NCBI GenBank assembly: GCA_913061235.1
Contig: CAJXTB010000002.1
Coordinates: 1 to 64,000, forward strand
Direction of reading: 5' to 3'
Source of the DNA: an uncultured Pseudomonadota bacterium
Lineage (GTDB): Bacteria > Myxococcota_A > UBA796 > GCA-2862545
DNA: 64,000 nt
How positions within the stretch are numbered: the stretch's first letter is position 1; every line of letters starts with the position of its first letter. Under the pieces are notes generated by a model, which saw nothing but the letters and a program-made list of their open reading frames with translations, searched no databases and was not told where the DNA came from. Both the position numbers and the translations under genes were made by a program. Of the stretch, positions 44,549 to 52,251 are shown piece after piece.

Positions 44549-45604
44549 ATGGATGTCAGTCATCTCCCAGTGTTTTCGGGCCTCAGCGACGACGTCGTCC
44601 GCGACGCCTTGGCCCACTTTCGGCCGGCAAATGTCGAGTTTGGAATGCAGCTAATGGAAGAGGGAGAGGCCGACTCGACCATGTTGTGCGTGGTCGACGG
44701 TGAGCTGGAGATCCGCACTGGCGACACCTTGCTCGGCAAGGCCAAAGCCGGTGAAGTTGTCGGAGAGATGGCGCTGTTCGGCTACGGCATGCGCATGGCC
44801 ACGGTGGAAGCGCTGACCAACGCGGACTTGTTGTTGCTGGACCGCGACGGCTACGCGGCCTTGCGTGACTCGGGCAGTCCTGTCGCGAAAGCCGTGGAGC
44901 AACTTGCACTGCGTACGCTGATGGCTCGGTTGACGTCAACGTCCGACCGTATCGCTGCGATGGCAGATGGCAGTCCGACTGGCTCGGTTGCCCCGCCCAA
45001 ATCCTTTTTCCAGAAGGTGGCCTCGCTGTTCGGCGGTGGTGGGCGTCGGCAGACCTCTTCGTTGAACCATCGGGCGATTCTGGAGCAAGCACCGTTCTTT
45101 CAGAAGTTCTCAGAGGGCGGCTTGGATTCGTTGGCGGACATGATGGTGGGTGTCGAGTACTCACCCGGCGAGTTTGTGTGCAGCGAAGGCGACTCGGGCG
45201 ACGAGATGTTCATCGTTGCCGAAGGACTGCTAGACGTCTTCATCAACACCGGCGATGATCGTGTCGAGCCCTTGGCTAGTTTGGAGCCGGGTGATGCGTT
45301 TGGCATGTTGGCTCTGTTCAACAATCGTCCGCGCATGGCGTCGTGTGTTGCACGCACGGATGTCGCCTGTTTGGCGCTGTCCAAGGAGCGATGGGATGCT
45401 GTGGTGGACGCTCACTCTCCAGCCGGTTCGGCCTTACGAGGGGCGCTGATTCGCTGCCTGTCCGACCAGTTGGCATTCGCGAATGCACGCCTGTCCCAGC
45501 TTGACCTGACCAAGCGGAAGAAGTCAGACCAACAGGCGTCGCTACTGGTTGTGTCCGCGGGCATGGACACGTACGGACCTGCTGGACGGAATGGTTCCAA
45601 GTGA
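44549..45604 (+). CDS. Tandem cyclic-nucleotide-binding-domain protein
   Basis: A 351-aa soluble protein with two CNB-type beta-roll domains (about residues 5-120 and 185-305) separated by a Ser/Lys-rich linker (K-S-F-F-Q-K-V-A-S-L-F-G-G-G-G). Phosphate-binding cassettes are visible as G-E-V-V-G-E-M-A-L-F-G and G-D-A-F-G-M-L-A-L-F-N-N-R-P-R-M-A-S. The first keeps the G-E-M-A-L core but neither carries a typical ligand Arg in full, so ligand binding is unsure. No DNA-binding domain. ATG 44549 after AAGGTG; the stop overlaps the next GTG (GTGA), so it is coupled to the carbamoyltransferase-like gene. Confidence 0.82.
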   Translation: MDVSHLPVFSGLSDDVVRDALAHFRPANVEFGMQLMEEGEADSTMLCVVDGELEIRTGDTLLGKAKAGEVVGEMALFGYGMRMATVEALTNADLLLLDRDGYAALRDSGSPVAKAVEQLALRTLMARLTSTSDRIAAMADGSPTGSVAPPKSFFQKVASLFGGGGRRQTSSLNHRAILEQAPFFQKFSEGGLDSLADMMVGVEYSPGEFVCSEGDSGDEMFIVAEGLLDVFINTGDDRVEPLASLEPGDAFGMLALFNNRPRMASCVARTDVACLALSKERWDAVVDAHSPAGSALRGALIRCLSDQLAFANARLSQLDLTKRKKSDQQASLLVVSAGMDTYGPAGRNGSK

Positions 45605-47274
45605 ACATTCTAGGACTGGCTGACGGGCCCCGACCGAGCGCTGCGCTGTACAAAGATGGCACCCTGGTGTCGGTTCGCACCGAAATGAAGGGGCTGGGCT
45701 TGGACCGCTTCGGCATTCCGTGGAAGGCTGCGGAGGCGGTGTTGCACGATGGTGGTCTGAGTCCTGCAGACGTCGACCATGTGGCTGTTGCCGGTAAGTT
45801 TACGCCGATGTTGTTGCTGCGCCAGCATCCGCGATTGCGTCGTCTGGGGGGAGATGCGTTCTCGCCAGCGCGTGACCTACATGCCTTGGCTCAGGCCTTC
45901 TTGCGTCAGAGTGGGCTCGGTGCGTTGGAGTCGGACCGCGCGGCCGACTGGTGGACAGCTCAGCTCAAGTCTCGCGGCTATGGCCAGCGTCGTCTTCAAC
46001 TTGTGACCATTCATAGAGCGCTTGCTGCTGCGGGCTATCGCTGCCAAGCAGATGACGATGTCCTGGTGATCAGCATGCACCCAATGGGGGACGGCGTGGT
46101 CGCGGCGGTTCACCGTGGTGAGGCCGGCTTTTTGGAGCTGGTGTGGGAACAACGTGGGTCATCGGCTCTTCAGGTTCACCTGACGCGCTGCGCGGAAGTG
46201 CTTGGCTTTGTCGGCACTGCGGACATGGTCGAGCTGTCTGAGCTGGCTGCAAAGGGCGTTGCCGATGGTGAGATTGTTCGCGAGCTGGAAGGCTGGCTGC
46301 GTGTGCGCGAAGGCAAGATCTGCGGGCATCGTCGACCGGTGCCTGGCTTTCGGCGCGACCGGGTCTACACGTTGCTCGAGAAAGCATCGCGAGCGGACGC
46401 AGCTGCGTCGTTGTTGGTGAACCTGCGCGATGCCGTGTGCAAGCTGGTGTCGTGGCACCTTCGCGCCGAAGCCATCCAAGATGTGGTGTTGTGCGGGAGC
46501 TTGCTGCATGACCCGCGACTTGTGAATGCGGTCGCGGCCTTGCCTTCCGTAGGCACTGTGACCGCACTGCCGTTGACGGGGGGGGCGGAGCTGGCTGTTG
46601 GTGCGGCAGCATCACTTGGAGGAGTGGCGCCAAGATCGTTGCCCGTGGCGGGATTGTCGCGCGCATTCAGCGACTCAGATGCCAAAGCTGCGATTGCGGC
46701 CTCTGCCTGCAAGCCAGTCAAGCGGCGCAGTCCTGCGAAGTGGCTCTCGGACCAGCTTGCGGAAGGCAATTCCGTGGCGCGGCTCGTTGACCGCGGTGGG
46801 CTGGGGCGATGGGGAGCGGGACGGTCTGCAGTTCTCGTCCGAGCAGATGACGCCGCCGGTATCGAGCGTCTGCGCAAGAATCTCGGCCGTAGTCCAGATG
46901 AACAGCCAGGCTGCTTGTTCCTTGACACTGTCATGGACGGGCGCAGCACTCATGCCGAGGTGTTGAAGAGGGCATGCCGACACGGTGTCGCCGCCATGTC
47001 GTTTGGAGAGGCCTTTTCACGACCCATTCGCGGTGTCGTTTCGAAGGATGGGCGCATCTACGCCGTTCGCGTTGCCGTTGAGACGGACCCGGTTCTCCAT
47101 GATGCGCTCACGCGATTGAAGAACAAGACCGGTTGCAGTGCAGTCGCCTGTTTCCCCCTTGCGGATGGCGACATGCCGTCGGTCACGAACCCCGAAGAAG
47201 CGGTGCGAGTGTTTGTGACGTCCGACCTAGACGCGCTACAGCTCGGCCCCTTTGGAGTTGTGAAGCCCGCATGA
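45601..47274 (+). CDS. Divergent carbamoyltransferase (NodU/CmcH/TobZ)-like protein
   Basis: A 557-aa protein with the fold signature of the carbamoyltransferase family: N-terminal M-N-I-L-G-L-x-D-G and a second Asp region D-D-D-V-L-V-I-S. Metal and carbamoyl-transfer histidines are not kept: D-G-H-x-A-S-A is D-G-P-R-P-S-A, and the H-H-x-A-H-A motif reads I-H-R-A-L-A. The C-terminal YrdC-like R-x-E-F-G-P-R-A-L-G motif is replaced by W-G-A-G-R-S-A. It is therefore likely a pseudoenzyme or an enzyme of changed chemistry. It overlaps both neighbours (GTGA, ATGA) in a run with a tandem-CNB protein and LarE. Confidence 0.75.
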   Translation: MNILGLADGPRPSAALYKDGTLVSVRTEMKGLGLDRFGIPWKAAEAVLHDGGLSPADVDHVAVAGKFTPMLLLRQHPRLRRLGGDAFSPARDLHALAQAFLRQSGLGALESDRAADWWTAQLKSRGYGQRRLQLVTIHRALAAAGYRCQADDDVLVISMHPMGDGVVAAVHRGEAGFLELVWEQRGSSALQVHLTRCAEVLGFVGTADMVELSELAAKGVADGEIVRELEGWLRVREGKICGHRRPVPGFRRDRVYTLLEKASRADAAASLLVNLRDAVCKLVSWHLRAEAIQDVVLCGSLLHDPRLVNAVAALPSVGTVTALPLTGGAELAVGAAASLGGVAPRSLPVAGLSRAFSDSDAKAAIAASACKPVKRRSPAKWLSDQLAEGNSVARLVDRGGLGRWGAGRSAVLVRADDAAGIERLRKNLGRSPDEQPGCLFLDTVMDGRSTHAEVLKRACRHGVAAMSFGEAFSRPIRGVVSKDGRIYAVRVAVETDPVLHDALTRLKNKTGCSAVACFPLADGDMPSVTNPEEAVRVFVTSDLDALQLGPFGVVKPA

Positions 47275-48098
47275 TGACTGCACCTGTCTCTCCCCTCGAG
47301 CGCTTGCGTAGCGTTCTGCGTGACATGGACTCTGTGCTTGTCGCCTTCTCGGGCGGGGTCGATTCGGCTCTGGTCCTGCGCGTTGCCGTAGATACCCTTG
47401 GCGACCGCGCACATGCCGTGACCGCCGAGTCTCCTACGTTTCCTCCAGAAGAAGCGGCCCTCGCTCGGGAGATCGCAGCGGACCTAGGTGTGGCCCATCA
47501 TATCGTCGACAGCCATGAGCTGGAGGTCGAGGGCTATGCGGCGAACGCCGGTAATCGCTGCTATTTCTGCAAGTCAGAGCTGTTCGTCCTGGCTGAGGCC
47601 GTGCGCCAAAAGCATGGGCTCGCCTGGGTCGTGGATGGCACCTTGCTGGATGACCTTGGCGACCATCGCCCCGGTCTTGTGGCCGCGAGTGAACAACGGG
47701 TTCGTCATCCGCTTGTGGAAGCGGAGCTCGGCAAAGCCACCGTCCGCGAGCTCGCCCGCAGCCTGAAGGTACCGGTGTGGGACAAGCCTTCGTTCGCGTG
47801 CCTAGGAAGCCGATTCCCAGACGGTACGCGTGTGACCGAGCCGAAGGTGCGGCAGGTCCGTTCCGCAGAGTCGGCGTTGCGCGTGTTGGGGTTTCGGCAG
47901 TTTCGCGTTCGCTGGCATGAGCTCGGAGACGACGTGCTGGCTCGTGTTGAGCTGCCAGCCGATGCCTTTGCGCGAATGGCTGAACCGGGTGTTCGGGACC
48001 AAGTGGTTGCCGCGTGCAAGGGGGTTGGCTTTCGCTGGGTGACGTTGGACCTTGCCGCCTACGTGAGTCCCGAGGATCGAGTTGCTCGTGAGCAGTAA
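47271..48098 (+). CDS. larE: LarE-type ATP-dependent sacrificial sulfur transferase
   Basis: A 275-aa PP-loop pyrophosphatase of the LarE/ExsB-like family, which adds sulfur during synthesis of the nickel-pincer (lactate racemase) cofactor. The PP-loop S-G-G-V-D-S-A is near residue 25. N-R-C-Y-F-C-K-S-E-L-F is present, and the conserved W-D-K-P-S-F-A-C-L-G-S-R segment has Cys177, the counterpart of the sacrificial Cys176 of Lactobacillus LarE. No larB or larC is visible, so it may serve another thiolation. ATG 47271 overlaps the previous stop (ATGA). Confidence 0.88.
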   Translation: MMTAPVSPLERLRSVLRDMDSVLVAFSGGVDSALVLRVAVDTLGDRAHAVTAESPTFPPEEAALAREIAADLGVAHHIVDSHELEVEGYAANAGNRCYFCKSELFVLAEAVRQKHGLAWVVDGTLLDDLGDHRPGLVAASEQRVRHPLVEAELGKATVRELARSLKVPVWDKPSFACLGSRFPDGTRVTEPKVRQVRSAESALRVLGFRQFRVRWHELGDDVLARVELPADAFARMAEPGVRDQVVAACKGVGFRWVTLDLAAYVSPEDRVAREQ

Positions 48099-49928: not shown

Positions 49929-50351
49929 TCACAGGTCGAGCCGCATGACAACCGCGTCGCAGCCGTCGTCGTAGTACTTCTTGCGCTCGCCGACAGTGCT
50001 GTAGCCGAGGTGCTCGTACAGGCCCCTTGCTGGGCCGTTGTCGGTACGGACCTCTAGGAAGACCTCAAGGACTCCCAGGCTCTGCAGACGGCCGTGAGCG
50101 GCTTTCAGGAGCTGCTTGGCAATACCGCGTCGTTGGTGCGACGGGTGCACGGCGACGGTCAGGACATCCGCACAAGGCCCGGCAACGCTGATGAGCACAT
50201 GTGCATTGGATTGATGAACCATCGACAAGCTGGACGTTGCCTGTAGAGAGGCGCGGATCTGGTCTTCGCGCCATGGATGTGAGGCGGCGGCGGCCTCGGT
50301 CGTTGCGATTGTGTGGGCGTCTTCTGCTGTTCCGTCTCGAAAGGGTGCCAT
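49929..50351 (-). CDS. rimI: RimI-like GNAT acetyltransferase
   Basis: A 140-aa GCN5-related N-acetyltransferase. The acetyl-CoA binding loop Q-R-R-G-I-A is preceded by V-A-V-H-P-S-H, and the C-terminal R-x-x-N-x-x-A-R-x-L-Y-x-x-L-G-Y motif is present, as in RimI, which acetylates the N-terminus of ribosomal protein S18. Length is 140 aa against 148 in E. coli. The substrate is inferred. ATG 50351 shares one base with the stop of the upstream SurA-like gene. Confidence 0.82.
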   Translation of the reverse strand: MAPFRDGTAEDAHTIATTEAAAASHPWREDQIRASLQATSSLSMVHQSNAHVLISVAGPCADVLTVAVHPSHQRRGIAKQLLKAAHGRLQSLGVLEVFLEVRTDNGPARGLYEHLGYSTVGERKKYYDDGCDAVVMRLDL

Positions 50352-50860
50352 CAGCGCTGCTCACGGATGGTTCGGATTCGACTCCCTGCCCGAAGCGTCG
50401 TGAGCAGAGTGTCGAGCTCGCCCCTCCAAGCATCGTCCGCCGGTGGCACACGAATGTTGCGCAAGGCAAAGCGCTCAACCACGAGGCGGCGCTGCGCCCA
50501 TTGGTCCAGTGCGCTGTCCGAGAGTCCCCACCTGGCAAAGAAGGCGTCCGCAGCAGCTGTGGAGTCGAATGTCGCGCGAATCGAGGCGACACGCTCGCTC
50601 ACGTCTAGATCGGACGGTGTGTACACGCTCACATCACCCGCGGCGGCCCGAAGGACGGCCGCGTCGATTAGTCGCTCACTGTCAGACCGAGCAGGGTCCG
50701 ACCACAACACGAGCGCTTGCGGGTCGTGGATGGCCATGGCGGCGTTTAGGTCGAGCTCTGTGGCAAGCACCAGCTCTTCTTCGACGACGGCCACCACCCG
50801 GTCAGCTGGGGCTGCCAGAGCGATGGAAAACCAGAACAGGAGGAGAGCAGTCACACCCAC
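50351..50860 (-). CDS. SurA N-domain-like periplasmic chaperone without PPIase domain
   Basis: A 169-aa exported protein. GTG 50860 follows AGGG at about 6 nt and gives a signal peptide (T-A-L-L-L-F-W-F-S-I-A-L-A). The mature start D-R-V-V-A-V-V-E-E-E-L-V-L matches the R-V-V-A-V-V-N-D-E-x-I segment that opens SurA, and the rest is helical. No parvulin domain is present, so it may be a chaperone fragment. The frame extends to 51049 but the region upstream of 50861 belongs to the divergent selenoprotein gene. It lies 41 bases from that gene and overlaps rimI. Confidence 0.7.
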   Translation of the reverse strand: MGVTALLLFWFSIALAAPADRVVAVVEEELVLATELDLNAAMAIHDPQALVLWSDPARSDSERLIDAAVLRAAAGDVSVYTPSDLDVSERVASIRATFDSTAAADAFFARWGLSDSALDQWAQRRLVVERFALRNIRVPPADDAWRGELDTLLTTLRAGSRIRTIREQR

Positions 50861-50901
50861 AACTACCCTACATTGGGCTACACTGCTGCCCTGGAGGTAC
50901 T

Positions 50902-52251
50902 GTGCTCGGTTGGTTGGTGTTGTTGACGGCTTGTTCAAGTGGACCCTCCCCGGATGCCGTGTCGGTCGTGTACCAAGGGCGGCTCGATGGTGAGATTGAA
51001 CCGTGTGGTTGACCTCGTAATCCTCTGGGCGGTCTGTCCAGGCGAGCATCGGTCCTTACAGAGCTGAAATCATCCGGTCCCGTCCTTGTTGTGGACGGCG
51101 GCAATGCGCTGCACCGCAATCGCGAGTGGCCCGCTACAGGCTTGCCTCAAGCCCGCGTAACTGCAGCTGTGGTTGCGAAGGGCCTAGCCGAGACGGGTAT
51201 CGACGCCATGGCCCTCGGTGGTCATGATTGGTGGCTAGGAACGGAGTTTGTTCAAGCCTTAGTGCGCGAACACTCCCTGCCAATCTTGGCTGCAAATCTG
51301 ACCTGCGACGGGACTGCGCCGTTTCCGGGCGGCGTGGTGGTGGAACGTGGGGCGCTGCGCTTTGCAGTCGTAGGCGTGACCACTGGCGAGCCGCAAGGCT
51401 GCGAGGTGGGGGACCCTCGTGTTCTGGCCGAGAGTGCTCTGGCTGGGCTCGGTGAGGTGGACGTCGCCGTTCTGCTAGCTCCCGAAGGTGAGGCGGCTCT
51501 CGAAGCTTGGGGAGCAAGTCAGAGCGCCTTCGATCTCGTTGTCGTAGGCGATAGTGATATCCCAAGCACCACAAGCGTTCCTTGGGGGGACGGCTGGCGG
51601 GTTCAGAGCGGTTCACGTGGCAAGCAGGTCGGCGTTGCAACGATTGAGCCCGTCTCAGGCGGGCATGGTCTGACGCGGACCGGAGAGGGAGCCACGCCCA
51701 CTGCGGGTGCCCATGTATTGTCCACGCGCCTGATTGCGCTTGCTGAAGCGCTACGCGAGGACCCAGACATCGCCGCTATTGTTGCGGACGGCAAGGTGCG
51801 TATTGCCGAGACAGAGGCCGCTCCTGCACGTCCCATTGACAGTGTGGCTCGACGAGTCGCAAGCGGCTCTGCCTACGCTGGCCGGGACACCTGCGCGGGA
51901 TGCCACGCTCAGGCGGACGCCCAGTGGCAGACGACTTCGCATGCTCACGCTTGGACAACTCTAGACGCCGCCGGACGCGGACTGGACCGAAGCTGTGTTG
52001 GGTGCCACGTCACAGGCTGGGAACAGGACGGTGGCCCGCAAGAGCCAGCAGCCATCGGTGCCTTCCGTGACGTTCAGTGTGAGGTGTGCCATGGCCCTTC
52101 GGCTGCCCATGTTGCCGATCCAGCGACCATCAAGCCAGTTCGTTCACCGTCTGTGACCGTGTGCACCACCTGCCACGACGGCGAGCGCGACGGCGGGCAG
52201 TTTGATGCCGAGACCTACATGCCACGCATCCACCATGGGCACGCTGAGTAG
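50902..52251 (+). CDS. Predicted selenoprotein: metallophosphatase-like lipoprotein with four c-type hemes (Sec37)
   Basis: I read this as one 449-aa selenoprotein. GTG 50902 (GGAGG 4 nt before) begins a lipoprotein with lipobox L-T-A-C. The frame runs to UGA at 51010-51012 and continues unbroken to 52251. The UGA falls in E-P-C-G-U-P-R-N-P-L-G-G-L, where relatives have E-P-C-G-C-x-x-N-P-L-G-G-L. Residues of about 20-300 are UshA/calcineurin-like with V-D-G-G-N-A and G-G-H-D-W. About 330-425 carries four C-x-x-C-H heme sites (CAGCH, CVGCH, CEVCH, CTTCH), cytochrome c554-like. A SECIS hairpin follows the UGA. Periplasmic redox role inferred; no Sec machinery genes are in the window. Confidence 0.85.
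51021..51045 (+). promoter_or_regulatory. Predicted bacterial SECIS hairpin downstream of UGA 51010-51012
   Basis: The stem pairs TCTGGGC (51024-51030) with GTCCAGG (51036-51042), including two G-U pairs, closing a GGTCT apical loop (51031-51035). After one C-C mismatch two more pairs extend it. The loop GGUC starts 18 nt after the UGA, the same distance and loop as in E. coli fdhF. The stem is coding and encodes P-L-G-G-L-S-R, part of the conserved motif. Confidence 0.8.

Follow-up and report, generated by a model that had tools for sequence, protein, structure and literature searches.

A divergent UshA-like (CxU) selenoprotein with a tetraheme tail and a proposed redox role

Introduction

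A gene-length reading frame in a 64,000-nt stretch of an uncultured bacterial genome (contig CAJXTB010000002.1, positions 1 to 64,000; hereafter the window) is interrupted by one UGA. Does this UGA end a protein or encode selenocysteine (Sec), and if the latter, what does the protein do? A preliminary description, made from the sequence alone, had read the frame as an unannotated selenoprotein in which Sec replaces a conserved Cys of a tetraheme, metallophosphatase-like lipoprotein. Ordinary ORF calling truncates such genes, here to a 386-aa protein without its signal peptide.

Gene structure and conservation of the UGA

Translation with TGA read as U gave the single frame that had been described, 449 aa long from a GTG start to a TAG stop (52249-52251), whose sole in-frame UGA is codon 37 (51010-51012); the features found in and beside it are collected in Table 1. 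At the N-terminus a short hydrophobic stretch ends in LLTAC, and most relatives have a comparable Cys in the place of Cys11. The lipoprotein signal proposed ahead of the UGA is thus visible, and export and lipid anchoring of the protein are predicted. Residues 33-45 read EPCGUPRNPLGGL (U = Sec37), so that the UGA does occupy the second position of a CxC/CxU motif.

Table 1. Position and supporting evidence of features at the selenoprotein locus (window coordinates)
Feature	Position	Strand	Evidence
Shine-Dalgarno-like GGAGGT, immediately 5' of the GTG start	50893..50898	+	Direct sequence reading
UshA-like selenoprotein gene, 449 aa with Sec37	50902..52251	+	Translation with TGA=U; NF041198, 246.7 bits; homologues
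Predicted lipoprotein signal peptide, lipobox LLTAC, Cys11 last	50902..50934	+	Sequence inspection
UshA/5'-nucleotidase/SoxB-type N-terminal domain, eroded metal site	50956..51738	+	AlphaFold2, VIA-align, ligand comparison
Cys35-Gly36-Sec37, putative redox motif	51004..51012	+	Invariant P-C-G-U/C in 36 aligned homologues; TGA in 45/45 non-redundant Sec forms
SECIS-like hairpin; apical loop GGUCU (51031-51035), 18 nt past the UGA	51021..51045	+	Folding; GGT codon bias
Tetraheme c-type cytochrome domain, four CxxCH, cytochrome c554-like	51889..52239	+	PF13435, E = 7 × 10−13; alignment

A plain ORF caller yields 51091-52251 instead, as expected if the UGA were a true stop, the real protein began at GTG 51091 and the upstream part were a decayed or unrelated ORF. 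The product from 51091 would lack the first strand and the motif of the domain as well as the export signal, which heme attachment requires. The aligned homologues share a conserved GEIEPCG directly ahead of the UGA, a good ribosome-binding site precedes GTG 50902, and both Sec machinery and a hairpin are present (see below); we consider a true stop highly improbable.

We gathered 47 non-redundant homologues from all fetched loci, counting in the window protein. As the preliminary description had anticipated, aligned homologues carry Sec or Cys at this same alignment position: the codon at Sec37 is TGA in 45 and TGC in two. The two Cys homologues (L075 and L078) are outlying sequences from groundwater Deltaproteobacteria. 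With 45 TGA against 2 TGC, Sec is the usual state in the lineage and no occasional replacement of Cys, so it was misleading to say that Sec replaces a conserved Cys: Sec is standard in the class, and among the 47 sequences Cys occurs only in the two outlying homologues. In a protein search of genomes of the same class, 59 of 71 gave a UGA-containing N-terminal match, and selA was detected in 52 of these 59; most of the seven genomes with the UGA form in which selA was not detected are incomplete assemblies. A pseudogene, or a sequencing or assembly error at the UGA, has the in-frame UGA itself in its favor and nothing further. The same TGA recurs in 45 non-redundant homologues across many genera and independent assemblies, and the rest of the frame is intact, which makes such an origin next to impossible.

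Selenocysteine machinery and the SECIS-like hairpin

We searched the host genome (7.18 Mb, 72 contigs, 99% complete) for Sec machinery. selA (451.9 bits), selB (309.1 bits) and selD (195.7 bits) each scored above the curated cut-off, and a tRNA-Sec was found (60.8 bits), which ARAGORN classified as SeC with anticodon tca (UCA); the set of genes by which the preliminary description proposed to check its claim is therefore all present. The selD match (L089, G000:C1:370690-371535) lies within an open frame of 720 aa; SelD is about half as long, which suggests a fused domain. The genome's formate dehydrogenase alpha match (L098:1501-2100, 813.8 bits) carries Cys (SRYCQAP) at a site that is often Sec in this enzyme; the UshA-like gene may therefore rank among the principal users of the genome's Sec machinery.

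The hairpin described past the UGA, with a GGUC apical loop at 18 nt, was recovered by folding. Deep members of the family have a shifted hairpin register with the loop GGUCUC, and for this reason homologues were folded individually in place of fixed-register counting. In all 44 Sec homologues that were scored, GGU/AC lies inside an apical loop of 5-6 nt exactly 18 nt past the UGA; the tetranucleotide is GGUC in 43 of them and GGAC in the remaining one. The loop and spacing are those of E. coli fdhF. The two Cys homologues have GGCG or GGCA at that place and no such tight hairpin. The loop Gly codon is GGT in 44 of the 45 Sec forms, whereas at the other Gly positions of these genes GGT accounts for 296 of 2196 codons (13%).

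Folding as a check thus bore out the loop at +18 but not an unusual stability: the raw minimum free energy of the isolated 61-nt stretch is unremarkable for its composition (z = 0.15), and a fraction of 0.117 (11.7%) of synonymous recodings of the window sequence fold as stably. GGUC combined with an equally stable hairpin occurred in just 1.4% of these recodings. In fixed-register counting, 82.5% of pairs were formed, with one double-changed pair, so that covariation is weak. A covariance model built from the hairpin alignment, whose training set contained the window sequence itself, matched the window place with E = 4 × 10−14, the next best match across the 7.2-Mb genome having E = 0.07. Rfam SECIS_1 (RF00031) gave no match in this genome and likewise none in all 14 control genomes, and is hence uninformative here. 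A pairing predicted by RNAalifold on a 48-nt alignment overlaps the UGA, is invariant and without covariation, and differs from the scored hairpin; it was set aside. The case for the hairpin is one of position and conservation, to which folding energy contributes nothing.

Since selA, selB, selD and tRNA-Sec are present, and both the UGA and the hairpin are conserved, the UGA at 51010-51012 is very probably a Sec codon, and we infer that Sec is incorporated in vivo. UGA conservation, hairpin and machinery together support the original claim that the gene encodes a selenoprotein.

Family assignment

The best NCBIfam match of the window protein was NF041198, "UshA-like (seleno)protein", at 246.7 bits, below the curated equivalog cut-off of 275 bits. 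Relatives from the same GTDB family also fall short of it (L020, 240.8 bits; L027, 234.1 bits), while the syntenic orthologue L048 (305.1 bits) and the deep member L074 (363.5 bits) pass, which marks the branch of the window protein as divergent. We therefore called membership by orthology instead of by the cut-off. The window protein and the L048 orthologue (aligned as L036) are 39% identical, and the four CxxCH motifs of the window protein align with the C-terminal part (345-513) of the NF041198 profile. The first loop of the UshA-type domain bears the family's PCGU/CxU motif, here E33-P-C-G-U37. Most relatives have, ahead of the heme domain, a coiled-coil-like insert spanning about 57 columns, which the window protein lacks. 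Sequence comparison places the window protein within the UshA-like (CxU) selenoprotein family as a divergent member, and we hold this assignment and Sec incorporation, taken together, as close to certain.

The preliminary description knew of no selenoprotein of this type. This was wrong, because "UshA-like (COG0737), CxU" has been tabulated since the 2008 Global Ocean Sampling selenoproteome, with 76 sequences (PMC2398784), and is modelled as NF041198; the type is not new, and the window protein is a new, divergent representative of a known family. The 2008 survey placed UshA-like proteins among the few abundant families without a tie to a known thiol-redox motif (PMC2398784), and UshA-like CxU selenoproteins are also tabulated in reviews of 2022 and 2026 (PMC9312934, PMC13188914). 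We found no assigned function in the literature on UshA-like selenoproteins, listed since 2008.

A search of plasmid records returned distant UshA-fold matches only. Four loci that carry the gene, and its neighborhood where checked (L054, L057, L076 and L079), come from metagenome records whose titles name Klebsiella pneumoniae or Bifidobacterium breve; these titles look wrong because the gene is of the Deltaproteobacteria type.

Domain architecture

We modelled the protein with AlphaFold2 from a 36-sequence alignment (pLDDT 90, pTM 0.89) and compared the model with known structures using VIA-align. The N-terminal domain matched 5'-nucleotidases with Z of about 30 (2.2-2.5 angstrom over about 265 residues) and SoxB with Z of about 28; it has the calcineurin-like fold. 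We then compared the metal site by profile alignment to the Thermus 5'-nucleotidase 2z1a and an alignment column table. The metal-site motifs of nucleotidases are ND-x-H, DAGD, GNHE, LSH and GHSH. The 2z1a residues D, H, D, N, H, H and H correspond to R27, D29, N68, G107, P194, D217 and D219 of the window protein, so that seven of the eight compared positions are replaced; H108 alone is retained, a residue that the family as a whole does not conserve. With almost all di-metal ligands lost, the protein is probably no longer a phosphatase: of the label "metallophosphatase-like", the UshA fold stands and the metal site does not.

Deep-branching members retain some ligands (VLSHLG and GGHDRKH in L063; similarly L064, L070 and L074). 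Because they keep LSH and GGHxxxH, loss of the site looks progressive. These retained ligands, the match of L074 to TIGR04486 (SoxB) and the clear resemblance in fold to 5'-nucleotidases and SoxB would also suit a selenoprotein that is still a metal-dependent hydrolase, a 5'-nucleotidase or a SoxB-like thiosulfohydrolase, with Sec as metal ligand or nucleophile. The seven replaced positions in the window protein and the fusion of the family to a tetraheme domain argue against it, and we judge a hydrolase unlikely. C35 and Sec37 lie directly past the first metal-ligand motif, on the loop that bore the first ligands.

That the protein is tetraheme, as described, is clear from its C-terminal part, where four CxxCH motifs (at C331, C365, C393 and C421, spanning residues 331-425) are all invariant in the alignment. 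For the heme part of the model, no cytochrome was among the VIA-align matches, which is uninformative on its fold. Literature for the PDB entry 6i5b led to OcwA and other extracellular electron-transfer cytochromes, which bear on the heme part only. Another match, to the cytochrome part alone, was the multiheme cytochrome c selenoprotein MccSep (PDB 9wt8 and 9wt9, including a U325A mutant); a literature search on MccSep found nothing relevant.

There are known enzymes in which Sec is a metal ligand. This precedent, and the existence of MccSep with its U325A mutant, although its cytochrome part is all that matches, lend something to the idea that Sec37 binds a metal or heme directly, as a structural or electron-relay ligand, with no Cys-Sec redox pair. 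Yet C35, two residues away, is invariant, the pattern typical of a CxU redox pair, and every CxxCH heme already has its own His; direct ligation seems to us a poor prospect.

Locus neighborhood

In about 24 of the 30 fetched relatives, the gene comes last behind genes for an ABC ATPase, an ABC-2 permease, ABC_transp_aux and DUF4340; in L048 this block (L048:1349-5986) lies directly upstream of the UshA-like gene, as in about 23 further loci. At the window locus all four transporter genes are absent, and the SurA-like and UshA-like genes adjoin divergently. The flanks, where gene names in the window were assigned by eye, match those of relatives: a Zn-ribbon protein, RimI and the SurA-like gene on one side, and tsaD, rsmA, PP2C, M23 peptidase and secA on the other. 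The order shared by the window and L048 (Zn-ribbon protein, SurA-like, [ABC block], UshA-like, tsaD, rsmA) supports orthology with the relatives. Within the same GTDB family, the transporter genes were found in G012, G013 and G014, and DUF4340 in G021; next to the selenoprotein gene they were not detected in G006, G007, G018, G019 and G025. The host genome has two DUF4340 genes elsewhere. The selenoprotein persists without adjoining transporter genes.

The ORF caller placed the SurA-like gene at 50351-51049 on the minus strand, so that it overlaps the beginning of the selenoprotein gene. The SurA-like gene probably starts close to 50880 instead, in which case a very short promoter region separates the two divergent genes. 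Further upstream, 47133-48098 and 45601-47274 adjoin and were read by eye as a putative LarE-like ATP-dependent sulfurtransferase and a carbamoyltransferase-like protein.

Discussion

Our best overall explanation, which we hold with good confidence, is that the gene encodes a divergent UshA-like (CxU) selenoprotein with Sec37 and a proposed redox role together with its hemes. In the mechanism that we propose, the hairpin past the UGA, with its GGUC loop at 18 nt, would recruit SelB with Sec-tRNA (UCA), so that codon 37 is read as Sec. The product would be an exported lipoprotein with a UshA/SoxB-fold N-terminal domain and a C-terminal four-heme domain. As the phosphoesterase site decayed, Cys35-x-Sec37 on the first-ligand loop may have become the active site, cycling between selenenylsulfide and thiol/selenolate and either donating electrons to the four hemes or accepting electrons from them. 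Because Cys35-Sec37 is taken as the new active site, we read the protein not as a phosphatase but as a putative oxidoreductase of the periplasm or outer membrane.

That it is specifically a surface redox protein, with the Cys35-Sec37 pair exchanging electrons with the four hemes, is a suggestion on which we are evenly divided. More tentative, and in our view rather doubtful, is the fullest version: a phosphoesterase fold that lost its metal site, is now a Cys-Sec enzyme wired to its own tetraheme tail on the cell surface, and originally partnered an upstream transporter. That partner would possibly have been of the ABC type, GldA/GldG/DUF4340-like and encoded just upstream. If true, the protein would represent a novel type of Sec-dependent extracytoplasmic oxidoreductase. 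A lost metal site, an invariant C-x-U and a tetraheme tail together give a concrete, testable redox hypothesis for UshA-like selenoproteins.

Among known systems, the closest is the NF041198/COG0737 UshA-like CxU family, with which the window protein shares the EPCGU motif, the UshA-type N-terminal domain, the C-terminal CxxCH domain and full-length homology; it differs in scoring below the cut-off, in lacking the insert of about 57 columns and in having lost metal ligands further than the deep members. UshA-like selenoprotein family 2 (NF049981) has a related UshA-like domain (33.3 bits, residues 21-105), but its motif is CxxU (PMC13188914) and the window score is far under its 140-bit cut-off. 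UshA/CD73 5'-nucleotidases and SoxB thiosulfohydrolase have the N-terminal fold in common with the window protein (Z of about 28-30), whereas in the window protein nearly all of their di-metal ligands are replaced and their C-terminal domain gives way to hemes. Nitrosomonas cytochrome c554 (PF13435; 1bvb) resembles the heme domain (residues 324-401, E = 1.3 × 10−6), which in the window protein is a four-heme tail fused to a UshA-like domain in one selenoprotein. ExtKL (NF040886) and MccSep (9wt8) represent another type of Sec-containing multiheme cytochrome, matching weakly and in the cytochrome part only; they belong to a different family, and their Sec stands in another context than Sec37 of the window protein.
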